Virus record (IMG/VR): IMGVR_UViG_3300046006_000631
Location: 1 to 38,625 of that record
Length of the DNA: 38,625 nt
Origin: a virus
Strand: one strand, 5' to 3'
Shown here: positions 4,004-26,504 of the stretch, one piece after another
Layout of the letters: each line of letters begins with the position of its first letter
How positions within the stretch are numbered: position 1 is the stretch's first letter
Translations under genes and position numbers: made by a program
Notes under the pieces: generated by a model
Seen by the model: the letters and a program-made list of their open reading frames with translations, nothing else
What the model was told of the DNA's origin: nothing
Database searches by the model: none

Positions 4004-6673
4004 TTAAAATCTCCGGTATTCAGTAAACGATCTTAAACTAATTGGGTTTTCTTGCCCAGATGCTGGCGGTAAAACATTAAATATCCACCCTGTATTATTG
4101 CCGCTATCTGTTGAATCTAATGCGTACCAAGTGTTTGTTGGTGTAGCGGCGCTGTTAATAATATCTAAATAATTTACAACTACAAGAGACGTTTCTAACA
4201 AAGTAAATTGCGTTCCAGGGGAACTAGAGTTCAGCGTCACTAAATTGCCCGCCGTACCGTTTACGTTAAAATTGCTGAAAGTTGTGGTTGTAGACGCTGG
4301 GAATGTAATCGTAGTGGGCTGCACGGTGTTAGTCATGTTGGCAAAAGTATTCGCACCAGTAATAAAAAGCGTTCCAGCACCGCCCTGATTTAGCGTGTAC
4401 GGGTAAACACCACCGCCACCAGCGAAGGTCTTAGCAGTTGCGAAGTCCATGCTGATCGTGCCTGTGCCACTAAGTGTTAGCCCAGTAGTCGTTACTGTAT
4501 AGCCGCCACCGTTAACCGCAATCTTCCCGTTAGTACCTAGATTTATAGTGCGGGTATTGGAGTTAGAGGAACTAAATATTCCCGTAGTAAATACCTTACC
4601 GTTGACGTTAAGTGCGCCGTTGGTCAGCGTAAATGTGCGGGTAGAACCCATCGTCAGGTTGTCTTGCAACTGGACAGTACCGCCTACTCCGTTTTGAGTA
4701 ACGGGGTTGTCTATTGTTTTTCCTGCTGTAGTAATCTGCTGTGTGCCTGATGTAGCTGCAAATGTAATTATGTTTCCACCAGCAGTTAAAGTCATTCCTG
4801 TGCTTAAAGTATAGTTGCCATAAATAGTTCTAGCAGTACCCCCGATTGTTCCAGCAAAACCTGTGAAATTCACAGACATATACGCATTATTAGTTGACTC
4901 ACTAAGTGTGTATGTACCTGTAGTAAAATTAAAGTTTAAAGCCTGCGCCTCAGTCATTGCAGCAGTTTGTATACTAGTTGCGGTGGCTGAGTTGTTTGAA
5001 ATATTAACGGTTGGCGTACCTGTGCGACTAAAGTTTGTAGATGTAGCGGTAGTCCAAACAGTTCCAGTTCCAGTTGTTGTGATGTTTCCAGTACCAAACG
5101 CTATGACTCTTGTGTTTGTATTGGTCGAGCTAAATGTAAGACAAGTCAATGTCCTGTTGCCGCTAGATAAGTCTAGCGTCCCGCTAGTCAATGTAACCGC
5201 AGCAGAGCAAGTTGTATTCTCTGCTAGCTGTAGCGTTCCGGTTGGGGAGTCTATAGTAATAGGTGGTGTGAACGTAGCGGTATTGGTATCTAAAATCTGT
5301 GTAGTGCCTTGACCGTTAAATACCCAAGCGGCTGTACCAGTCATTGTGACAGCAGAAGATAGCGTTACGTTTTTGTAAATGATTGCTTGAAAAGAACCGC
5401 TGGCAAATGTCATTGGTAGAGTTCTAGTAGAAATATCTAGTTCTCCAAACCAATAGACAGCAAGTGAAACAGAAATTGAAGCGGCTGAGTCAAGACCTGT
5501 GTTTTCAATAATTACTTTGTCTTGCGCTAGTGGAAAGTTATTTGCATCAACAGCACCACCAGACGATAATGCCCAAGCGGTAGCCGTCCAAACACCACCC
5601 GCAGCAAGATTCCAATAAACGTCTTTAGCTGCGGTAAATGTAATGCCGCTGTTACCTAGTCCGTTACCAAGCCGAGTGCCTGTCCATGTGCCAACAGAAC
5701 CAGCAGTTGCAATGTTTCTAAAGTCAACATCCGCTAATGTGGCAAGCGTTCCGTTAAGAGTAATTGTGCGCTGCGTTCCAATGATGTCGGACTGTACCTG
5801 TAGTCTGCGAACAGAAGTATTTGCTGCACCTAGAGTTAGCGTTCCAGATACAGTTTGGTTTGCGCCTAAAGAAAAACCTCTTATCGAAGTAGCACTCCTG
5901 CTTGTTTGGTTTAAATCATTAAATGTATTTGCGCCAGAAATGGTTGTGTTTCCAGCACTAGCACTTGTAAACGATACATTGTAGAAAGTCTGACCGCCAC
6001 CAGCAAATGCTGGACTAGTTCCAGAACAAGTAATCTGTGAAGTATTAGCGTTAAATGTAAGCCCTGCTGTTTGTGAAAAAGTAATAGCGGAAGAATTAGA
6101 TAATGTTACGGTAGAAGAACCTAAGTTAATTACTTGTGTTCCTACTGTAGTAACCCTGAAAATTCCGCCAGTTATATTAAAATTACCAGTATTAAATGTT
6201 CCATTAGCAATTTCTAACGGATTATTGCTACCATAAGTCAACGCCGAACCTAAAGTCCAACCACCACCAACACCATTAAAAACTATGGCAGCACTAGCCA
6301 AAGAAACACCATTAGTTGTAATGGTTTTGCCTGTAGTGGTTGATCTAAAGGTTATTGTCGCATTAGCAATAGCTGACCAAGTAAGCCCCGTTGCTGGCAA
6401 AGTCAATGAACCATGACAGCTAATAGCTGCCGTAGCGCCCAAGGAGAATGTGACATTACCTGATAATGGACCAGCAACCGTCAAGTCCTCACAAACAGCG
6501 TTCGTGCCTACGGTGACTGTATATAGTGTTGCGTTAGACAGCGAATCAAAGATTACATTATCAGCAGACGTAGGGGCAGAAGCACCGCCAGCACCACCAG
6601 AAGTCGCAGACCAGTTTGTAGTTGTGGTTGCATCCCAAGTACCCGCACCGCCTACCCAATAGCGATCAGCCAT
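4004..6673 (-). CDS. Giant repetitive beta-helix adhesin or tail protein
   Basis: An 889-residue protein dominated by Thr, Ser, Gly and Asn in short beta repeats (for example TLTSGTLDLSSGNRTL and TRTINLGTNGKI), as in beta-helical adhesins. It starts with an entry module (residues 4-66: YWVGGAGTWD then SADNVIFDSLSN) that recurs near 352-418 (VYWNLAAGGVW then QDKVIIEN). A second paired module containing AGGG and GANTF appears near 223-255 and again near 755-790. The whole architecture is therefore duplicated. There is no signal peptide, as expected for a virion protein. Its place between portal and tail fibre suggests a host-surface-binding appendage; the receptor cannot be read from the sequence. 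It could instead be a head fibre. Confidence 0.72.
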   Translation of the reverse strand: MADRYWVGGAGTWDATTTTNWSATSGGAGGASAPTSADNVIFDSLSNATLYTVTVGTNAVCEDLTVAGPLSGNVTFSLGATAAISCHGSLTLPATGLTWSAIANATITFRSTTTGKTITTNGVSLASAAIVFNGVGGGWTLGSALTYGSNNPLEIANGTFNTGNFNITGGIFRVTTVGTQVINLGSSTVTLSNSSAITFSQTAGLTFNANTSQITCSGTSPAFAGGGQTFYNVSFTSASAGNTTISGANTFNDLNQTSRSATSIRGFSLGANQTVSGTLTLGAANTSVRRLQVQSDIIGTQRTITLNGTLATLADVDFRNIATAGSVGTWTGTRLGNGLGNSGITFTAAKDVYWNLAAGGVWTATAWALSSGGAVDANNFPLAQDKVIIENTGLDSAASISVSLAVYWFGELDISTRTLPMTFASGSFQAIIYKNVTLSSAVTMTGTAAWVFNGQGTTQILDTNTATFTPPITIDSPTGTLQLAENTTCSAAVTLTSGTLDLSSGNRTLTCLTFSSTNTNTRVIAFGTGNITTTGTGTVWTTATSTNFSRTGTPTVNISNNSATATSIQTAAMTEAQALNFNFTTGTYTLSESTNNAYMSVNFTGFAGTIGGTARTIYGNYTLSTGMTLTAGGNIITFAATSGTQQITTAGKTIDNPVTQNGVGGTVQLQDNLTMGSTRTFTLTNGALNVNGKVFTTGIFSSSNSNTRTINLGTNGKIAVNGGGYTVTTTGLTLSGTGTISMDFATAKTFAGGGGVYPYTLNQGGAGTLFITGANTFANMTNTVQPTTITFPASTTTTFSNFNVNGTAGNLVTLNSSSPGTQFTLLETSLVVVNYLDIINSAATPTNTWYALDSTDSGNNTGWIFNVLPPASGQENPISLRSFTEYRRF

Positions 6674-10754: not shown

Positions 10755-12278
10755 TTACGACCCCATCCAGCTAGTTGCCATGCCTTGCGGCGAATAGTTT
10801 CTTACTTTAATTTTGTTACTACTTTCTCTATGCGCCACAGGAAATGCAAAGGTTACACATATCGCATCTGCCGCATCCGGTGAGGCTAGACCCCTCGCAC
10901 GCATATCCTTCTTAGACTCCAAAAAGATCGTACCCTTAGAATCCGGCTTCATTATAGGCGATATTAAATCAGTTTTTAGTATCCTGTCACTAGGAATCGA
11001 CGCAGTTTTCAACCAATTACGCATTTCTCCCCACATTTCAGCCCGTTTGTTGCCATACATCATCGGGTTTTTGCTCTTACTACCGAAATTCACACCCCGA
11101 ATCTTGTAGCGCTGCTCTTTGAGACGATCAACCACCCCGCCGCCCACGCCACCTTCATCAACCACCACCATCGCAGGGGCATACTCCTCAATACACTCAA
11201 TGACATGACCCACAACGGTCATCGTATCATCACCCTTGAACCGTTTAATCGCAATAATGTCCCGTCCTTGCCGGATGGCAATGACGGTGGAGTCCGAGCC
11301 AAAGCGTGCAGGGTCAACTCCCACGATAATGGGGGCAGAGTTGTCTTTGTACTTGTCCCGTTTCATCGCCTCATCGACGATTAATGACGATATAAACTGA
11401 TCATCACCCGCTGAAGGGAAGGAGCCATAGACTTCGACCGCCGCCTGACTTGAATCCGCACCATATTCCTCAATGATCTGCTCATAGACCGCCTTATCTG
11501 TTCCCTCGACTGTCCTTGCATCCACAATCTTAGTCTTCCAGAAGTCACGCTTAGAGTTAAAGCACTCAAAGAAGTAGCCAGTATTGCGACGAGGGTTAGA
11601 GAAAGACAACCAGAACCGATTCGGGGTGTTTTCGGTAAAAAAGCCCGAGGTCACCGCCCAAATAGAGTCATCAATACCAGATGCCTCATCAAAGATCACC
11701 ATCACGCCATCATAGTTGTGGACACCCGCATAAGAGTCAGGGTTCTCGGCTGACCACAATCTGCCTTCCACCGACCAGTAGCGCGTGCCTTTTTTTAAGT
11801 CGCGCTCAACCAGTTCAGTCAACCACTTAGCCGGCATGAGACGGGTAGCGCTCACCTCGAACCAGTGGGAGTTTAATGACATCGCCAACCACTTAGTAAT
11901 CTCTGCCCAGGTCACCGATCGAAGCTGAGACTCCGAGTTTGCCGAGATGATGGTGGTCGAGCCAATCCGTGTGGAGAGCATCCAGATGGTGAGCCATGAG
12001 ACGAGGGCAGACTTACCAATACCACGACCAGAACTTGTCGCCATACGAAGCGTATCAAAGTCTACCTTGCCGTTGTTTTGCTTGATGTGATCTTTGAGGG
12101 AGATGAGTACCTCCCGCTGCCATTTGCGTGGTCCGGTAAAGTTAGCCAAGGGCGTGCCTTGCACACCCCAAGGAAACGTGTAGAGGACAAAGGCTAACGG
12201 ATCATCCTTGATTGCGGGTGACCAGAGACGGCTCATTAGAGTCATCTCGTCTTGGGCTGTATATTGCGTCGTCTGCAT
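10755..12278 (-). CDS. terL: Terminase large subunit
   Basis: The 507-residue packaging motor has both expected domains. The ATPase has Walker A SSGRGIGKSALVSW (about residues 82-95) and Walker B VMVIFDEASG (about 191-200). The RNase H-like headful nuclease has acidic residues in IIVGVDPARFGSD (about 315-327), MVVVDEGGVGGG (about 370) and PDAADAICVTF (near 470). It converts ATP into DNA translocation at the portal and cuts the concatemer. Start 12278 has an AGAGG site 10 bases upstream. It overlaps the small terminase gene by 77 bases, longer than usual, so an internal start at Met12 or Met15 is possible. Confidence 0.95.
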   Translation of the reverse strand: MQTTQYTAQDEMTLMSRLWSPAIKDDPLAFVLYTFPWGVQGTPLANFTGPRKWQREVLISLKDHIKQNNGKVDFDTLRMATSSGRGIGKSALVSWLTIWMLSTRIGSTTIISANSESQLRSVTWAEITKWLAMSLNSHWFEVSATRLMPAKWLTELVERDLKKGTRYWSVEGRLWSAENPDSYAGVHNYDGVMVIFDEASGIDDSIWAVTSGFFTENTPNRFWLSFSNPRRNTGYFFECFNSKRDFWKTKIVDARTVEGTDKAVYEQIIEEYGADSSQAAVEVYGSFPSAGDDQFISSLIVDEAMKRDKYKDNSAPIIVGVDPARFGSDSTVIAIRQGRDIIAIKRFKGDDTMTVVGHVIECIEEYAPAMVVVDEGGVGGGVVDRLKEQRYKIRGVNFGSKSKNPMMYGNKRAEMWGEMRNWLKTASIPSDRILKTDLISPIMKPDSKGTIFLESKKDMRARGLASPDAADAICVTFAFPVAHRESSNKIKVRNYSPQGMATSWMGS

Positions 12279-12657
12279 CTATTGTGAGCCTCTGTTGAGC
12301 CTGCTCTAAAGCAGTGATGATACTGATCTGTTGCGTGACGTCGACCTGGACTTGCTGCTTGGCAACCCAATCGTGTTTGTGCTTTAGGAACTCTAGCGCC
12401 ATCTTAGCGTCGCCAGCTAAAGCAGCGTTACGCATGATTGTAGACATCTCAACCTCGGAGTCCGCGCGTCCCTTCTGTTCTGCAAGTTCCACTACTGGGT
12501 CAAGCTGCGTGAGTTGTCGATACTCTACAGGCAACATCCCTGCTGCAAACGCCAACGCGTCTCCGCGCAATCCTGCACGGGCAGCGTCGTAAATGCTGCG
12601 TAGCCGTGACTCGGTAGCTTTAACTTGACGAGGCGCGAATGGGAGCGATTCAAACAT
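12202..12657 (-). CDS. Terminase small subunit (putative)
   Basis: A 151-residue, largely helical protein directly upstream of and overlapping terL, the standard place for TerS. The segment DALAFAAGMLPVEYRQLTQL followed by KGRADSEVEMSTIMRNAALA and KMALEFLKHKHDWVAKQQ is the layout I recognise from TerS-type proteins. It would recognise the packaging-initiation site and feed DNA to TerL. I chose ATG 12657 over the in-frame TTG at 12663. A perfect TATAAT at 12664-12669 ends 6 bases before this ATG, and there is no Shine-Dalgarno sequence, so translation may be leaderless. Confidence 0.8.
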   Translation of the reverse strand: MFESLPFAPRQVKATESRLRSIYDAARAGLRGDALAFAAGMLPVEYRQLTQLDPVVELAEQKGRADSEVEMSTIMRNAALAGDAKMALEFLKHKHDWVAKQQVQVDVTQQISIITALEQAQQRLTIDADDAIYSPRRDDSNEPSLVTRNQG

Positions 12658-12663
12658 GAGCAA

Positions 12664-12669
12664 ATTATA
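12664..12669 (-). promoter_or_regulatory. Minus-strand -10 box for the late packaging operon
   Basis: TATAAT on the minus strand lies exactly 6 bases (TTGCTC) before the small terminase ATG. No good -35 box is present at 16-18 bases, so activation by a phage factor or by the nearby repeats is plausible. The predicted start of transcription falls at or next to the start codon. Confidence 0.5.
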
Positions 12670-12780
12670 TATGCTTTTTGTTGTAAATTGTATTGCAAAA
12701 AATTAAAAAAATTTCAAAGTTTTTGTGAGCAGTGCGCACACACATACCCCCAGCGCAAGGCCCTACCCCCCCCCTCTTGG

Positions 12781-12973
12781 CTAAGGAATGCTTTATGCTG
12801 CACTGCCGCAAGCCTGGGCTAAGGAATCCTTAAGGCTAAGGAAAACTTAGGAAGGAATGACGCTAAACATTCCTTAATGCCTGGACTAAGGAATATTTAG
12901 TTAAGTATTGCTTAGCCCAGGTTAAGGAATGCTTAGTCCAGGTTAAGGAATACTTAGGGCTAAGGAATCCTTG
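12781..12973. repeat. Cluster of CTAAG-GAATN-CTTAG dyad repeats
   Basis: Copies begin at 12781, 12819, 12836, 12886, 12901 (inverted form), 12922, 12943 and 12960. Weaker copies lie at 13032-13046 and 13071-13084. Each is a 15-base partial palindrome (CTAAG/CTTAG arms, 5-base centre, usually GAATN). Units 12922 and 12943 are 21 bases apart, two helical turns. AAGGAATG at 12852 and CATTCCTT at 12868 form an additional 8-bp hairpin. Such dyads fit a dimeric DNA-binding protein or an initiator. Confidence 0.75.
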
Positions 12974-13364
12974 TAAGTTATGTAGTCATTGTAGTCATGT
13001 TTTAAAAGTCTTTACACGCTCAGAATTCTTCCTAAACTAAACTTAGTTTTTACGCCAGTCCTTACGCGTCCTAAGAAATCCTTGTAAGTCATGTAAGTCA
13101 TGTAGTCATTGTTTTTAAATTGGGTTTGAAACGGCGCAGCTTTGATTACCGCTATTATCTAGTACTTATCTACTACGTTTTTTCAATATTGATATTAGAC
13201 TAATAATATAACTACATGACTTACATCCTTCAAGAGCCGCGTATTTATTGGCTGCGCTGTAAGTCATCCGATGACTACAAAATGACTTACATGACTGACA
13301 AATCGCTGCGAGGATTTGCGAGGATTGCGCTTGCAAGTGTAAAAGAATCCTGTACAATGACTAC
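12973..13364. repeat. GTA(A)GTCAT repeat family
   Basis: Forward copies are at 12973 (one mismatch), 12982, 12991, 13084, 13093, 13102 and 13259. Reverse copies (ATGACTTAC or ATGACTAC) are at 13216, 13271, 13282 and 13357. The copy at 13357-13364 overlaps the last bases of the early promoter -10 box, so these may be operators for the early operon. Confidence 0.7.
13331..13358 (+). promoter_or_regulatory. Early plus-strand promoter
   Basis: TTGCAA (13331-13336), a 16-base spacer and TACAAT (13353-13358) resemble a sigma-70 promoter (4/6 and 5/6 matches). The expected start is near 13365, giving a leader of about 59 bases before the first early gene. A GTAGTCAT-family repeat overlaps the -10 box. 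Confidence 0.5.
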
Positions 13365-15469: not shown

Positions 15470-15660
15470 AAACTTATAGAGTTTATGGCGAGTACATCCA
15501 AAAGGTCTTTATAGACATCGTCGCGCCGGATGATGAAACGGCGCAAGAGATAGCGGCGTGCGACACTGACAATGCGGAATGGACGTTGATTGATACGCCT
15601 AACCTAGTTATAGACATTAACGAAATCGAATTTATTGGAGCAGGCCAAAATGACGCTTAA
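15466..15660 (+). CDS. Early acidic protein, 64 residues
   Basis: Starts MKTYRVYGEYIQKVFIDIVA and contains PDDETAQEIAACDTDNAEWT. The alternation of strands and helices (beta strand, DDETAQEIA helix, ending IDINEIEFIG) is typical of small ferredoxin-like phage proteins I have seen annotated as hypothetical. It is coupled upstream by a 4-base overlap and overlaps the following gene by 11 bases. Confidence 0.6.
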   Translation: MKTYRVYGEYIQKVFIDIVAPDDETAQEIAACDTDNAEWTLIDTPNLVIDINEIEFIGAGQNDA

Positions 15661-15874
15661 ATATACGAACGGACAACCAGTTGAGCGCGGCGATATTGTG
15701 CACCTAAAAAACACGGCGTACACGGTGCACGACTTCGATAAGTCGCACGGGTACGTGTACGTTAAGGCTATGGATGAACGCGCACACTTCAAACCCATTT
15801 TTCCTAGCCAGATCAAGGCGTATTGGGATAACGTGCACCCCATATTCGCGGAGGCGCTTAAATGCTACCCTTGA
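15650..15874 (+). CDS. Early hypothetical protein, 74 residues
   Basis: I chose ATG 15650 (MTLKYTNGQPVERGDIVHLK), with GGAG 9 bases upstream, rather than the in-frame TTG at 15635. The opening strand-turn-strand (GQPVERGDIVHLKNTAYTVHD) suggests a small KOW/SH3-like barrel, a structural guess only. It ends EALKCYP and overlaps the next tiny frame by 13 bases. Confidence 0.6.
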   Translation: MTLKYTNGQPVERGDIVHLKNTAYTVHDFDKSHGYVYVKAMDERAHFKPIFPSQIKAYWDNVHPIFAEALKCYP

Positions 15875-15948: not shown

Positions 15949-18264
15949 CTATTTCACGATCTGTAGTGGCGGCGAAGTCGCGGGCAATTCCTCGACCATA
16001 CGCCGCAATTCGGACTTGGGGTACTTGGCAACCATCTCAGGCGCGGCGTATAGGTGTTTCTTAGTCGTGTATTCGCGACACATAACAAGCCCTAGATCAA
16101 CCCAACGCGCCTCTGCTAAGGCATGTATGAGCGCGGGCATGGGTACTCTTACGCCCGTGTTACTCATACGGGCGCAGAGTGCCTGGAATGGGCTAGAAAT
16201 TACACCTCTGCTAAATTCGCCCTTGCGCTCGATCAAATCATGGTAAATACTGGATTCCGCGCCGCTCATACCTTGTTCAATCATTGAGCGCTTAAACTCG
16301 GTTTCAAACGGTATGGCCTTGGGATTAAACTTGCTAACGTCCCGCGCGTATAGCCACGCAGCAACAGCAGATAACCCGCCCGCGTTATACCAAGCCCATA
16401 AACGGGCGCTTTCCTCCTCTGTCATTCTGGGGGCGTCCGACCATATACAAAACCATCGCCCATCATCAGAATCTAGCGTGATAGACAGCTTATCGTTACT
16501 GAACGCCACCACAAACAGTCTATTGATCATCTCATAAGGTTTCAATCCCTTTCTATTGATGCTTATCATGTCTGGCGGCGCGGCGATAATGGGCTTAAGC
16601 GCGTTAGCTAAGGCGCGGCGTTCCCTTGCGTCAGGCTCTTTCAATTCATTGAGCACTAGCACTTCCGTTTCTAACTGGTAGTGAAATTGCTGTTGCAATT
16701 GAACGGCGGCCATTAATTTGACGTTATCTTGACTATCGCCCTTGATACCCCAAAAGAACGGCGCCCAAAAGCTGTCCTTACCTGAGCGACTGCGCCCAGC
16801 ATGTAGGATTGCATGGTTTACCTTACCCTTGGGATTTTGCAACTTATAGGCCATGGCGTCCAATACATGATTGCGCTCGGCATCATGGGGTATCAAGCGC
16901 TCACCATGTATAAGCCAAGGGTTAACGTCTCCAAGCACAACAAGCGGCCTTAAATTGCGCCATTTGTTAGCGTAGACTAACCCGCCGCGCGACACTAGCA
17001 CGTCATCGCCCGCTGCAAAAGTAATGCCAGTTAGGGCGGGCGCGCCGTATTTCTGTCTAAGCTCATCAAACGATACGGACGCCTCCACACGGCGCTTGGT
17101 GTTGTGTGCGCTCTTGCAGTCTATATGCCGGAACAGCGCGTTAAATGATTGGCGCGAAATCTGGGTGCGCTCGTGCATGTCAAAATAAGCATCATCAGCT
17201 TGAAGATATGCAAAGCGGTCAAACCATCCGGCCTTCTCTACCCGTCCAACCTCTTTGCGCTCGACCTCGGCAATGATCTCAGCACCCCTATCTGGGAACG
17301 CCTCGGTAGGTGTCAACTTGGATAGCGCAGCGGTCATACTGGAGGCCAACAACTCCTCTCGCAGTCCAGGCGAGTGACGAGGGCCGCCCTGCTCCTCTAC
17401 CCACGCTAAAAATGACGCGCTATCAAAATCAATGCAATGCGAGTGCAGACAGCAAAACGCGCGGGTCAAGGGTAGATAGCGCCCCTCTGGGTTGCCGTCC
17501 GTATGCTGTTCAAAATTAGGACAGACAACGCCCATCCAACCTTGGTTATTCGGTTTAGATATGATCAAACTATTGACCGACAACCAACGCACGACATCGT
17601 CGTTACCATCGTCCATCAATCGGACTGCGCGAAGAGTTGCGGTGTCTGCGGCCTCTGGCGTGACATTGAACGCCTTGCAGATTTCTTCTAGCGTGTATTC
17701 GATCTTAGGGTCAAATTCAACCAACTTGGCGGCAAAATTATCGCGCCCAGGTTTCAAGTTGATCGACTCAGGCAGACGGAAATTACGCACGGCATTGGTC
17801 GCTCCAGGATCGGTGTAACCCGCCGCTGCAATCGCTTTGATGGCGGCGGTAAATTCGCCAGTTGTGGGTTGATCTGAGAACGTGTAGCCCCATTGGAACG
17901 ACCCTTTGGATGTCTCCATAATCCAAGTAGGCTGTAATGGAGGGATGTTCGGGGCTTTATCTGGATCACCCACATCGTCCAAGACCATGACCATCACATA
18001 CTCGGCTTTACTGACTGACGCGCTTGGATAGCCTTCAGTAAAGCGGTCAATAATAAAGGATGCTGTATTGCCATAAATCGCCCAATCGGGCTTGACTTTT
18101 TGAGTGGGCAGATAAGCAGGCCACGTCGCTTTGATCGCGCCGTTGGCGTGGAGTTGCATCGCGCCGTCTTTAAATTGTGGTTTTTGGCGAACAATTAGTG
18201 ATGTTTCACCCTGCATAGCAAGGCCAGATAGATATTGAATAAAATTTTGTTGTACACTCGACAA
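15949..18264 (-). CDS. Primase-helicase (RepB/AEP-like primase plus DUF5906-type helicase)
   Basis: The 771-residue replication protein reads as two parts. The N-terminal third resembles a RepB/AEP-type primase: VMVLDDVGDPD has the paired acidic residues and VRNFRLPESINLKPG resembles the family's RxPxSxNxK element. The C-terminal half has an SF3-like ATPase with Walker A HAGRSRSGKDSFWAPF and later ELKEPDARERR and KGLKPYEMINRLFVVAFSN, as in DUF5906/D5-type helicases. It should prime and unwind at the fork. I place the start at TTG 18264 because AAGGAG lies 7 bases upstream; an upstream GTG (18300) would lie within a hairpin. Confidence 0.8.
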   Translation of the reverse strand: MSSVQQNFIQYLSGLAMQGETSLIVRQKPQFKDGAMQLHANGAIKATWPAYLPTQKVKPDWAIYGNTASFIIDRFTEGYPSASVSKAEYVMVMVLDDVGDPDKAPNIPPLQPTWIMETSKGSFQWGYTFSDQPTTGEFTAAIKAIAAAGYTDPGATNAVRNFRLPESINLKPGRDNFAAKLVEFDPKIEYTLEEICKAFNVTPEAADTATLRAVRLMDDGNDDVVRWLSVNSLIISKPNNQGWMGVVCPNFEQHTDGNPEGRYLPLTRAFCCLHSHCIDFDSASFLAWVEEQGGPRHSPGLREELLASSMTAALSKLTPTEAFPDRGAEIIAEVERKEVGRVEKAGWFDRFAYLQADDAYFDMHERTQISRQSFNALFRHIDCKSAHNTKRRVEASVSFDELRQKYGAPALTGITFAAGDDVLVSRGGLVYANKWRNLRPLVVLGDVNPWLIHGERLIPHDAERNHVLDAMAYKLQNPKGKVNHAILHAGRSRSGKDSFWAPFFWGIKGDSQDNVKLMAAVQLQQQFHYQLETEVLVLNELKEPDARERRALANALKPIIAAPPDMISINRKGLKPYEMINRLFVVAFSNDKLSITLDSDDGRWFCIWSDAPRMTEEESARLWAWYNAGGLSAVAAWLYARDVSKFNPKAIPFETEFKRSMIEQGMSGAESSIYHDLIERKGEFSRGVISSPFQALCARMSNTGVRVPMPALIHALAEARWVDLGLVMCREYTTKKHLYAAPEMVAKYPKSELRRMVEELPATSPPLQIVK

Positions 18265-18287
18265 AGTAATTCTCCTTAGTTGTCTTG

Positions 18288-18316
18288 AGCCCACCCCCAC
18301 AGGTGGGCTTCTTTTT
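18288..18316 (+). terminator. Intrinsic terminator oriented against the operon
   Basis: AGCCCACC (18288-18295) and GGTGGGCT (18302-18309) form a perfect 8-bp stem followed on the plus strand by TCTTTTTT. The flanking genes are both on the minus strand. As a terminator it would stop plus-strand (antisense) transcription, while as a minus-strand hairpin it sits just upstream of the primase ribosome site. Confidence 0.65.
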
Positions 18317-20232
18317 TACTTACCATACCTCTGCATAATGGCGGCCTCGACCCCCAATGGCAGATCAGCGCACCATGCAGGCGGCGTACACATTACCAGT
18401 TCAATACGCGCTTTAACTTCTTCAGCTTCTGACGCGTCGCACTCCACAACGATTTCATCGTGGACATGCAATACGACATCGTCAAGTTTAGCCAGAGCTG
18501 CGCGTAGGACATCGTTCGCCGCAGCTTGAGTGATATTTTCGCAAGCAAGGCCTTTCCAAAGTCTAGCGCGCGGCCACTCTTTGGCATCTGCTGCGGGTTT
18601 CCAAGCGGCTTTGGCATATGTCACACCTTCTTCTTCCAATCGTGCGAACGGGTAGCATAGCACCCGACCTGAGGGGAGCGCATACCAGAGATGCGATCCA
18701 TCGAATAGATATGTTACTCGACCCGCAGTAAACTCGTAATTCTTATTTCGCATAGCGCGTGTGTATGCTGACTCAAGATCAGACCAGTACGAAACAGCCC
18801 ACGGATTAGCGCGCCGCCATGCGTCTACCATGCGTCTGGCATCCGACTCTGGTAGATGTATACCATACGCCCGACCCATCGCAGCAAACGCGCCAATGCC
18901 GCCCGCAAAGCCACAGGCCAACTCTTGCACCTTACCGATCTGGCGTTGATCTTTAGTGACCTCTTTCACGTTAAAGGTCGCAGCGGCGTTAATCTTGTAC
19001 ACGTCTTCACCCTTGGCAAACAAGTCTAACTTAGCCATGCCAGAGGTGCAGTTCGACAGCCACGGGTTCATACGCGCTTCAATACTCGACCAATCGGCAG
19101 CGATCAACACACGCCTAGGTGCAGCCATTAGGGCTGGTCTAAGCATTCCTCTAAGTACGTCCGTGACGCGTTTGCCAAACTTAGGAACAATGCTCTGTCC
19201 TCGTACCATGGCGTGTCTAACTTCATCCGGTTGAGTAGCACACCGACGAGTGAAGTTGTGGACTTGTGCCCCATAGCTTGAAGCTCTACCTGTAGCTGCG
19301 CCTCCTGCAAAGACAAACGCGCCTCTGACGCGATAATCTTCTGCATCTGCCAAGTCTGCAAGGCGGCTGAACTTCGCAACCGACGACGCCCAAAGGTCAT
19401 CGGCGCACTGGATAACCTCGGCGACGTCGGGCGCAAGGTCTTCGCAGGCGAGTAGGTTTGCCCTGACCGTTTTGTCGATTGAGTATTTACCATCTTCTAC
19501 CTCCATCAATTTAAGTTGTTCTGGCGTGACACGTTCGATGACCCACTCACGCATCTTGGGTGAGCGTACAGACTTAATCACGCCTTGTGTGACTTCGCTC
19601 ACGATCTGTTGTATCTCGTCTAATTCGACAGCCGCGTATTTGATTGCTGCATCGCACAACGGCACGTCTACCAAGACGCCACGATCGTTGATGCGTTCGT
19701 TGACATGGTAATCGTCTAACTCATTTTTTGACAGCGGGCGCAGGCCACTACTGATCGCCCGCATGGCACGGACATCCTGCTCACAATAGGCCACCATCTC
19801 GGACATCAAGTCGAGGGACGTGTTGAATGTACCATCGGCGCGCGGTATCGACAACAGACGGATCAGTTGCGCGCCTCTGTGGTCTTTCTTCATGCTTGCG
19901 CCTGCAAAGCGCCCCACGTCCTCAAGCGAACCTGGTGCGCAATTGGCGCGCGCTTGTGCTGCGGTGCAATAGAACTGCTCTAACTTAAAATCAATCTGTA
20001 AGACATACCAAAAAATCAAACGCTCAAAGGCTGCGTTGTGCGCACGGATCTCGCCAGTATGGTTTAGGATGCGCTCAGGTATCGCGCCAGACGTCCAAGT
20101 CTGCACGTCCTCATCGTCGAACGCAAACGACATACACAGCACTTCAGTTGTGCCGTCTTGGGCGTAGTTGTAGACGCCGTGCTTCTTTAGGTCGCAGCGG
20201 CTGCGCGTCTCAAAATCAAGCCAAAGAATCAT
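18316..20232 (-). CDS. DNA polymerase, family A
   Basis: This 638-residue replicative polymerase has an N-terminal 3'-5' exonuclease (Exo I MILWLDFETRS at residues 1-11, Asp-x-Glu; later IRAHNAAFERLIF and YCEQDVRAM). The polymerase domain has motif A LIAADWSSIEAR (about residue 375), motif B region RQIGKVQELACGFAGGIGAF (about 435) and motif C VVLHVHDEIVVEC with the His-Asp-Glu triplet near 600. I start at ATG 20232, where the exonuclease begins; the upstream extension to 20316 only reads the end of the neighbouring gene. It overlaps the PP-loop gene by 17 bases. Confidence 0.94.
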   Translation of the reverse strand: MILWLDFETRSRCDLKKHGVYNYAQDGTTEVLCMSFAFDDEDVQTWTSGAIPERILNHTGEIRAHNAAFERLIFWYVLQIDFKLEQFYCTAAQARANCAPGSLEDVGRFAGASMKKDHRGAQLIRLLSIPRADGTFNTSLDLMSEMVAYCEQDVRAMRAISSGLRPLSKNELDDYHVNERINDRGVLVDVPLCDAAIKYAAVELDEIQQIVSEVTQGVIKSVRSPKMREWVIERVTPEQLKLMEVEDGKYSIDKTVRANLLACEDLAPDVAEVIQCADDLWASSVAKFSRLADLADAEDYRVRGAFVFAGGAATGRASSYGAQVHNFTRRCATQPDEVRHAMVRGQSIVPKFGKRVTDVLRGMLRPALMAAPRRVLIAADWSSIEARMNPWLSNCTSGMAKLDLFAKGEDVYKINAAATFNVKEVTKDQRQIGKVQELACGFAGGIGAFAAMGRAYGIHLPESDARRMVDAWRRANPWAVSYWSDLESAYTRAMRNKNYEFTAGRVTYLFDGSHLWYALPSGRVLCYPFARLEEEGVTYAKAAWKPAADAKEWPRARLWKGLACENITQAAANDVLRAALAKLDDVVLHVHDEIVVECDASEAEEVKARIELVMCTPPAWCADLPLGVEAAIMQRYGK

Positions 20233-20983
20233 AGCGCGACACCGTTTCAAACTTTTCTTCTGGGGCAATGCAGATCGCGCCGCACTCGATGTCTGGCAGC
20301 GGCACGTTGCGTCCATAGTTGGGGTTTAGTTCATCCAAGAATATACGCTTGCGCTTACCATCGCCCGCGTAAGACTTGTTGATCGCTACACCCATCTTGC
20401 GCTCTTGCTTGGCCATGCGATCAAACGCATCAGGAAAATCTACACGGATTTTATTCCAGTAGCCTGCCTGACCTTTGACGCAACCAATGCAGTTGTTATT
20501 GTTGTACCCAAGTTTGTACATCTCAGGCAATTCAATGCCTGCCTCTTGAACAATACGGTAACAATCTTTTTTAGTAGTGTTCTCAAGAATCCACTCAACT
20601 TTAGTGTCTGAGTTCTGGTCTTCAAAGCGTTCAATGCGCTTGGCCTCATCTTTAGTCAGACCAAAGATATGCACGTCATCAGGGCGTTCGTATTGTTTGC
20701 GCACGTTCTTCTTTAACTCAGTCGTGCAGCGCGCGCCGCCTACGCCGATCAACCAGCCAGTCTTGTCAAACACATCAAAAATGTCTGTGTACTTAGCTGA
20801 CTTTAATAATTTAATTTCTTTGCCAATCCATTTAGCGACATCGTTTAGGAACCGCATATTGTCTGGGTGTTCGTATGCAAGCGTATCGCAATACAACACT
20901 TCACAATCTGGGTATTTATCGACAGCCATCTTAGCTGCCACGGCGCTTGCTGCGCCGCAGGAAAACCACACAAGTGTTCTCAT
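20216..20983 (-). CDS. PP-loop / PAPS reductase-like enzyme
   Basis: The 255-residue protein starts MRTLVWFSCGAASAVAAKMA, a PP-loop (pyrophosphatase) motif like the SGGKDS of PAPS reductases and DndC-type enzymes, here SCGAAS. Further family-like features are EVLYCDTLAYEHPDN, GARCTTELKK and a NNNNCIGCVKGQAGYWNKI segment with Cys-x-x-Cys. Several cysteines could hold a metal or cluster. It adenylates or activates a substrate with ATP; the substrate is unknown (sulfate, tRNA base or DNA). I chose ATG 20983 with AGGA upstream. It is embedded in the replication operon and overlaps the polymerase gene by 17 bases, hinting at a DNA-linked role. Confidence 0.8.
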   Translation of the reverse strand: MRTLVWFSCGAASAVAAKMAVDKYPDCEVLYCDTLAYEHPDNMRFLNDVAKWIGKEIKLLKSAKYTDIFDVFDKTGWLIGVGGARCTTELKKNVRKQYERPDDVHIFGLTKDEAKRIERFEDQNSDTKVEWILENTTKKDCYRIVQEAGIELPEMYKLGYNNNNCIGCVKGQAGYWNKIRVDFPDAFDRMAKQERKMGVAINKSYAGDGKRKRIFLDELNPNYGRNVPLPDIECGAICIAPEEKFETVSRYDSLA

Positions 20984-21099
20984 TATTTTGTCCTGTAGGC
21001 GGGGTGTCAATTTGGTCGTTAATACTTGTGCGTTGGAAGGCAAGAAAAACACGCACTTACGACATCCTTAAATGCTTGCCTAACCACCCCTGACCTTAC

Positions 21100-25570: not shown

Positions 25571-26136
25571 ACACTGAAGAAATATTCCAACAAGTGATGG
25601 ATGAGAATTGCAAAGATCCGTTGCATCGCTTTGCCGAGCTAGTGCGCCAAGATGAGCGTGAGGCGTCTGATACATTAAAAAAGTTAGCAGGAGAAGCGTT
25701 AACAGCGCTAGAAAAATATAACCGGTATGAAATTAAAACTGATAGCTATGATCACAGCACAAATTTAATTTATGATTTAAGAGATGTTTTAAACCATAAG
25801 CGTATGCCTTTGCGTGAGCAATGGGACACATCCGACATGGCGCATCGGTCTGGTGGGTTGAGTGTTGAGCAAGAGCCTGAGCCTACTGCTTGGGTTACTG
25901 ATGACTTTGCAATAACTTACAGCGCTGAGGTAGCGCAGCGTTGGCGTGACAAAGGATGGAAAGTCGTACCTTTTTACACCGCACCACCAAAGCGAGAGTG
26001 GGTCGGGCTGACGGATGAGGAGATACATAAAATCATTGACGACTGCACCCCAAATGAAGCAGAGTTGGAAGAACTAAATGATTTTGCGAAAGCTATCTTT
26101 GCAGTTGAAGCCCAATTAAAGGAGCGCAACACATGA
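25567..26136 (+). CDS. Hypothetical accessory protein, 189 residues
   Basis: I start at ATG 25567 (MNTEEIFQQVMDENCKDPLH), which overlaps the previous stop, rather than the longer frame from 25465. The N-terminal half is helical. The C-terminal half contains AWVTDDFAITYSAEVAQRWR, then VVPFYTAPPKREWVGLTDEE, a module I recognise at the ends of many otherwise unrelated phage proteins. This points to a mosaic protein built from a variable head and a shared tail. Function unknown. Confidence 0.65.
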   Translation: MNTEEIFQQVMDENCKDPLHRFAELVRQDEREASDTLKKLAGEALTALEKYNRYEIKTDSYDHSTNLIYDLRDVLNHKRMPLREQWDTSDMAHRSGGLSVEQEPEPTAWVTDDFAITYSAEVAQRWRDKGWKVVPFYTAPPKREWVGLTDEEIHKIIDDCTPNEAELEELNDFAKAIFAVEAQLKERNT

Positions 26137-26504
26137 TCACCCCCAAACAAGAACAAGTGCTCGACATTCTGAAAAGCAAAAAAAGCATGACCGCTGCTGA
26201 GATTGCTAAAGAAATGAAGATGGTGGCCACTGCCATTGCAGCGCACCTACGACGCCTAGAAGAGGCCGGTCACATTTATGTGTCTGAGTGGCGAGGTGGT
26301 AAGTACGGCGTCCCTACAAAGGCATACAGGTACGGCAAAGGCGATTCTGTTGAGTTTGTTGGCAAACGTAAAGCACCAAACAAAAAGATTAAAGACACCG
26401 TAGTTACTGAGAAGATAGAGATTGACGCACCCCGACCAGACTATGCATCAGCATGGCTATTTCATCACCCAAGAGTAGAATTATTAGGGGCAAGGTATGA
26501 TTAA
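26133..26504 (+). CDS. Winged-helix DNA-binding protein
   Basis: The 123-residue protein opens with a winged-helix fold: ITPKQEQVLDILKSKKSMTA, then AEIAKEMKMVATAIAAHLRR (helix-turn-helix with recognition helix) and LEEAGHIYVSEWRGGKYG (wing), as in MarR/ArsR-type regulators. The C-terminal part is basic and then unstructured. It is the only clear transcription-factor-like protein in the window and a candidate ligand for the repeats at 12.8-13.4 kb. It overlaps DUF3310 by 8 bases. Confidence 0.75.
   Translation: MITPKQEQVLDILKSKKSMTAAEIAKEMKMVATAIAAHLRRLEEAGHIYVSEWRGGKYGVPTKAYRYGKGDSVEFVGKRKAPNKKIKDTVVTEKIEIDAPRPDYASAWLFHHPRVELLGARYD

Follow-up and report, generated by a model that had tools for sequence, protein, structure and literature searches.

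A lineage-restricted dyad array fused to iterons in the control region of a freshwater tailed phage, and its possible role as an accessory binding-site array

RESULTS

The phage and its relatives

The region between the divergent late and early operons of this freshwater tailed phage contains an array of 15-bp dyads that is conserved in its closest relatives and specific to this locus, and the dyad at its edge is fused at a fixed offset to a run of 9-bp iterons. Judged from its sequence, and with moderate confidence, we take the array to be a multi-copy set of accessory binding sites in a combined origin and divergent-promoter region.

The window, by which we mean the whole 38,625-nucleotide stretch analyzed, is an IMG/VR viral record and a P22-like podovirus contig. 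Genes read in it include terL (large terminase; 10755-12278, minus strand, by homology searches), a family A polymerase, a DUF5906 primase/helicase-like protein, and a DUF2800/PD-(D/E)XK exonuclease. The terminase small subunit gene, terS (12202-12657, minus strand, with an ATG start at 12657), was assigned from its place before terL, which matches that of the annotated terS in OR003940.1, and from its homologs in relatives. P22-type portal, coat, and gp10 genes are present in the annotated relatives. Named relatives, with their TerL identities, are MW202483.1 (75%) and DSL-LC05 (OR003940; 67%), the latter placed in the proposed "Luchaoviridae" (PMC10611076). TerL and the P22-type head genes of both are homologous to those of the window, but both genomes lack the CTAAG dyads. 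Part of the relatives' contigs are closed, with terminal overlaps of 114 to 127 bases, and many are fragments; a 92.9-kb contig, the source of L246, was excluded from gene comparisons because it apparently joins a window-type phage to other phage DNA. The TerL relatives were binned chiefly with betaproteobacterial MAGs, Rhodoferax among them, binned phage contigs being weak host evidence, and the Rhodoferax phage P26218 differed in gene order. A GroES-type cochaperonin gene (PF00166; 9397-9642 in the window) lies between terL and portal and is found in nearly all array-bearing contigs, and a PAPS-reductase-like gene (20216-21052) sits inside the replication cluster.

The dyad array

Mismatch searches and arm scoring located nine 15-bp sites with the consensus YTAAG-GAATN-YTTAR on the plus strand at 12781-12974, starting at 12781, 12819, 12836, 12863 (inverted), 12886, 12901 (inverted), 12922, 12943, and 12960. 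Some of them, read as inverted repeats, have extended half-sites, CCTGGRCTAAG/CTTAGYCCAGG (12881-12942 and also 12813-12833). Two further plus-strand dyads lie past 12973: an outlying one, CTAAACTAAACTTAG, at 13032-13046, from repeat and arm searches, and an iteron-fused one, CTAAGAAATCCTTGT, at 13071-13085, from a repeat search, which belongs to a 44-nt dyad-plus-iteron block 80% identical to 12960-13003. The cluster of at least eight dyads reported in a preliminary description of this DNA is therefore real and larger, with 11 sites. Its account of the surroundings was also accurate: sites at 12901, 12922, and 12943 are 21 bases apart, the adjacent tract is AT rich (12664-12735, 22% GC), and the array separates terS/terL, which run leftward, from an early operon running rightward from 13424.

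Matches to CTAAGGAATNCTTAG with up to three mismatches numbered 20 in the window compared to 2.7 expected, and all except two fell within 12781-13085, so the motif is not scattered at random. When only the arms were scored, 7 CTAAG-N5-CTTAG sites with no more than one mismatch and 11 with no more than two were found at 12781-13085, whereas 2,000 dinucleotide shuffles of the control region gave means of 0.06 and 0.64 and maxima of 2 and 6, respectively. Among spacers of 0 to 12 bases, a spacer of 5 alone was enriched, and in most contigs CTAAG was not enriched outside the array (the window ratio was 1.21). The sites are out of helical phase with one another.

Alignment of the window with two relatives, L004 and L128, showed where the array varies: 8 of 90 arm columns, 10 of 45 spacer columns, and 25 of 62 columns of intersite DNA, gaps included. 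Variable columns were thus rarer in the arms than in the rest of the array (8/90 versus 35/107; Fisher P = 5e-5 for the three aligned relatives), which is the pattern expected of recognition sites.

A sister array with a shorter spacer

Relatives were surveyed by searching for TerL homologs and then inspecting the DNA upstream of terS. Close relatives have the motif at this same locus, so the objection that it might be missing there, raised in advance by the preliminary description, does not apply. However, the 15-bp array as seen in the window was limited to the closest relatives; more distant ones carried at the same place a sister array, CTCACTAAGTCTTAG, with identical arms and a 1-base spacer. 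The CTCACTAAGTCTTAG core was invariant in 155 of 155 spacer-1 sites from 32 distinct regions, a count that demanded exact arms only, not CTCA, and therefore left out degenerate copies; flanks and spacing varied. In the TerL tree, arrays occur in clade A (the window), clade B (the main spacer-1 clade), clade C (both types), clade D (a spacer-1 array plus one 15-mer), and clade E (one divergent locus). The other clades of the tree account for 54 array-less rows, and sister clades are without dyads, a distribution that may reflect gain and loss, or transfer. Dyad orientation is uniform in clade B, opposite in clade C, and mixed in clade D, which favors an element acting as duplex DNA over one acting as RNA. 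In clade D, a small early ORF has one dyad immediately 5′ of its start codon, an operator-like position that fits a regulator site.

A gene-blind scan for paired CTAAGTCTTAG, run over 2.9 million viral contigs, returned 48 stretches. Forty-six came from the phage family of the window, 45 of them with an adjoining terS confirmed by tblastn and the remaining one (L222) beginning within the array yet carrying the family iterons; L223 and L243 were unrelated. The corresponding scan for paired 15-mers gave four stretches, three from the same family, and an exact 15-mer search over viral contigs gave mostly lone, scattered matches. In whole contigs of the relatives examined, spacer-1 dyads were confined to the array. 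Keyword searches of the open-access literature found neither the CTAAGTCTTAG string nor the dyad array.

Other elements share the region in some relatives. Further palindromic repeats (TGCTGCACTGCACAATG, TTGTTGGACAACCAACAA, and CTGTATAAACATACAG) are interleaved with the dyads upstream of terS in L216, L233, L008, and L226, and the window retains a trace of them at 12795-12808. A separate tandem array (TTACACGAAGCTTACACGAA...) adjoins the dyads 200 to 310 bases upstream of terS in L251, and L074 has a tRNA-Thr gene (5301-5375) within the control region upstream of terS.

Iterons and the dyad-iteron junction

Next to the array are 9-bp iterons. Sequence reading and repeat comparison identified TGTAAGTTA-TGTAGTCAT-TGTAGTCAT at 12972-12998 (plus strand), the first overlapping the final 3 bases of the dyad at 12960-12974, and a repeat search found TGTAAGTCA-TGTAAGTCA-TGTAGTCAT at 13083-13109 (plus strand), the first overlapping the dyad at 13071-13085. 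Inverted copies (13217-13225 and 13283-13300) and one direct copy (13258-13266) follow in a minus-strand group at 13208-13300, and between the two groups is an AT-rich stretch (13140-13230, 26% GC) that is a candidate unwinding element. Tandem 9-mers with inverted copies recur in most relatives, array bearing or array-less, and the 9-mer itself differs from phage to phage: TGTAAGTCA in the window and TGTAGGTCA, TGTAGGCAA, TGTGGACAA, TTTGGGTCA, TGTGAGTCA, and others in relatives.

The 9-bp iterons around the AT-rich stretch are most likely the core origin, to judge by analogy. SaPI Rep and SCCmec Cch2 are initiator helicases that read iteron origins (PMC7581432), which makes the iterons better origin candidates than the dyads. 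As in those origins, the window has short tandem repeats, some copies of them inverted, close to an AT-rich candidate unwinding stretch, and a primase/helicase-like gene in the genome; unlike them, it has a separate, lineage-restricted dyad array beside the repeats. The DUF5906 protein (15949-18300, minus strand), picked out by its domain match and weak covariation, is a candidate iteron-binding initiator. Iteron distance correlated with primase distance (Mantel r = 0.40), and residues ∼610 to 690 were the sole segment clearly above the protein-wide trend (partial r = 0.30), a lead rather than proof. The primase, one of two dyad binders put forward in the preliminary description, is more plausible as a binder of the iterons than of the dyads. 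The skew minimum predicted there was absent, and cumulative skew tracks gene strand.

Where the array meets the iterons, the first iteron starts at the 13th base of the dyad, so that the right arm of this dyad reads CTTG[T/A] instead of CTTAG. This composite, with a fixed 12-base offset, was found in 19 of the 35 regions that have an array and in none of the 51 that lack one, counts that are less independent than they appear owing to shared descent. By clade, it was present in 3/3 regions of A, 15/23 of B, and 1/4 of C, with differing iteron sequences, and was missing from 8/23 clade B regions and from clades D and E; in four of the matches the first iteron unit is 10 bases rather than 9. The junction thus persists while both the dyad and the iteron sequences change, and this constant register between the last dyad and the first iteron makes the array and the iterons look coupled.

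Promoters and the terS-proximal block

A promoter scan and comparison of relatives placed a candidate early promoter, TTGCAA-N16-TACAAT, at 13331-13358 (plus strand), where several relatives have a full TTGACA-N16-TACAAT. No promoter-like site was found within 12781-12974, and one candidate lies at 13011-13038. On the terS side, a block consisting of an A/T tract followed by GGCCCTACCCCCCCCC (12664-12774) is found in array-bearing and array-less relatives. In most of them it reads as an A-tract, ∼45 to 50 nt, and then GGCCCTACCCCCCC directly upstream of terS; in clades D and E the tract is GGGCCCTGGGGGGGG instead. It is a possible late-promoter or packaging element.

Candidate dyad-binding proteins

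No gene tracked the array across all clades. The other binder put forward in the preliminary description, a winged-helix protein (26133-26504), is not supported, as its family was not detected in the closed array-bearing contigs G005, G006, and G007; among 42 related records it had one clear homolog (the L128 contig) and one weak one (G018). An unrelated winged-helix family encoded near the helicase in 8 clade B contigs was likewise not detected in those three contigs. A 73-residue early protein (15653-15874, plus strand) was singled out by co-occurrence with the array and a predicted SH3/Tudor-like barrel (pLDDT of 73; best PDB match, E = 0.025). In clades A to C it was present in 19 of 20 array-bearing contigs compared to 0 of 10 array-less ones, but it is absent from clade D, and it was not seen in the clade E locus, which is incomplete.

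TerS is also an unlikely binder because its candidate recognition segment is nearly identical in the window, L251, and the array-less L037, and because L004 keeps its array although its TerS (2214-2654) lacks 24 residues of that segment, in frame. L004 also has a 279-amino-acid ORF between terS and terL.

DISCUSSION

The 15-mer dyads are probably read by a sequence-specific double-stranded DNA-binding protein acting as a dimer, because the 5-bp half-sites are 10 bp apart center to center, about one helical turn. Such a protein would coat the spacer from terS to the iterons, and the iteron-fused dyad would bring it against an iteron-bound initiator. It could then aid or restrain initiation as well as the late and early promoters on either side, the sign of the effect not being readable from sequence. 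Because the spacer changes from 5 to 1 between lineages, the two forms cannot simply be recognized in the same way by a single protein. A more specific version, which we put forward tentatively, is a two-component origin in which fast-diverging 9-bp iterons are held in fixed register to a conserved array for a second, possibly host, protein, with the spacer switched between 5 and 1 in sister lineages.

The preliminary description had offered an iteron origin or a dense operator array. An operator-type array and an origin neighborhood both agree with our results, but the choice of the dyads as the iterons was probably mistaken, because the 9-bp repeats next door persist in array-less relatives. 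Multiple copies, an AT-rich neighbor, and a control-region location are what dyads bound as origin iterons by a phage initiator would show. However, dyads are absent from 51 distinct control regions of homologous phages, the 9-bp repeats are retained without them in sister clades whose primase and polymerase are homologous, and there is no skew minimum, so that this reading is improbable. A purely transcriptional array, with which a phage or host regulator switches the late and early promoters and which has no part in replication, deserves more weight, though we consider it only a possibility. Its location between divergent operons, the clade D copy right before an early start codon, and a 10-bp half-site spacing suited to dimeric helix-turn-helix proteins all agree with it, whereas most dyads do not appear to lie on a recognizable promoter, the fixed iteron fusion suggests a link to the origin, and no regulator gene tracks the array.

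Sites for packaging (pac or cos) are often close to terS, and the array is ∼120 to 320 bp from it. We nevertheless think it unlikely that the array is a pac site for the terminase small subunit: array-less relatives with near-identical candidate recognition segments in TerS package too, L004 retains the array despite its TerS deletion, and the block of the A-tract and GGCCC-C-tract is a better shared candidate. Because phages with strongly differing proteins share one identical spacer-1 site, the dyad binder may be a host protein. In line with this, CTCACTAAGTCTTAG is the same in clades that diverge by 30 to 50% in their own proteins, and no phage gene tracks it; yet paired sites were absent from ∼85,000 bacterial and archaeal reference genomes, and horizontal transfer of the array could yield the same pattern, which leaves titration or recruitment of a host DNA-binding protein as the array's purpose a slim prospect. 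Least probable by far are transcribed RNA hairpins of a leader or antitermination element. The predicted fold is stable (z = -5.5), but any palindrome array is expected to fold well, orientation flips among lineages, the spacer-1 form is limited to a 4-bp stem, and an Rfam search gave no credible match.

Comparable site arrays are known in other phages. Repressor operators of the lambda, P22, and 434 type likewise lie between divergent operons and are dyads of ∼15 bp whose half-sites are spaced by one helical turn; here there are ∼11 copies instead of a few, and no cI-like repressor was found among the scanned genes. Mycobacteriophage stoperators, which are spread across the genome and bound by the immunity repressor, resemble the dyad array in that a single phage lineage carries numerous copies of a site that is short, asymmetric, and highly conserved (PMC9283540). 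In contrast to stoperators, the dyads are clustered at a single locus, and no lysogeny module was recognized.

The value of this region is that it is the compact control region of a widespread uncultured freshwater phage group and comes with natural variants of two repeat systems. Since the junction is fixed and the spacer has changed with the arms kept, these phages would allow a direct test of the coevolution of origin and transcription control, and the same variants would serve to test which protein reads the dyads and which the iterons.
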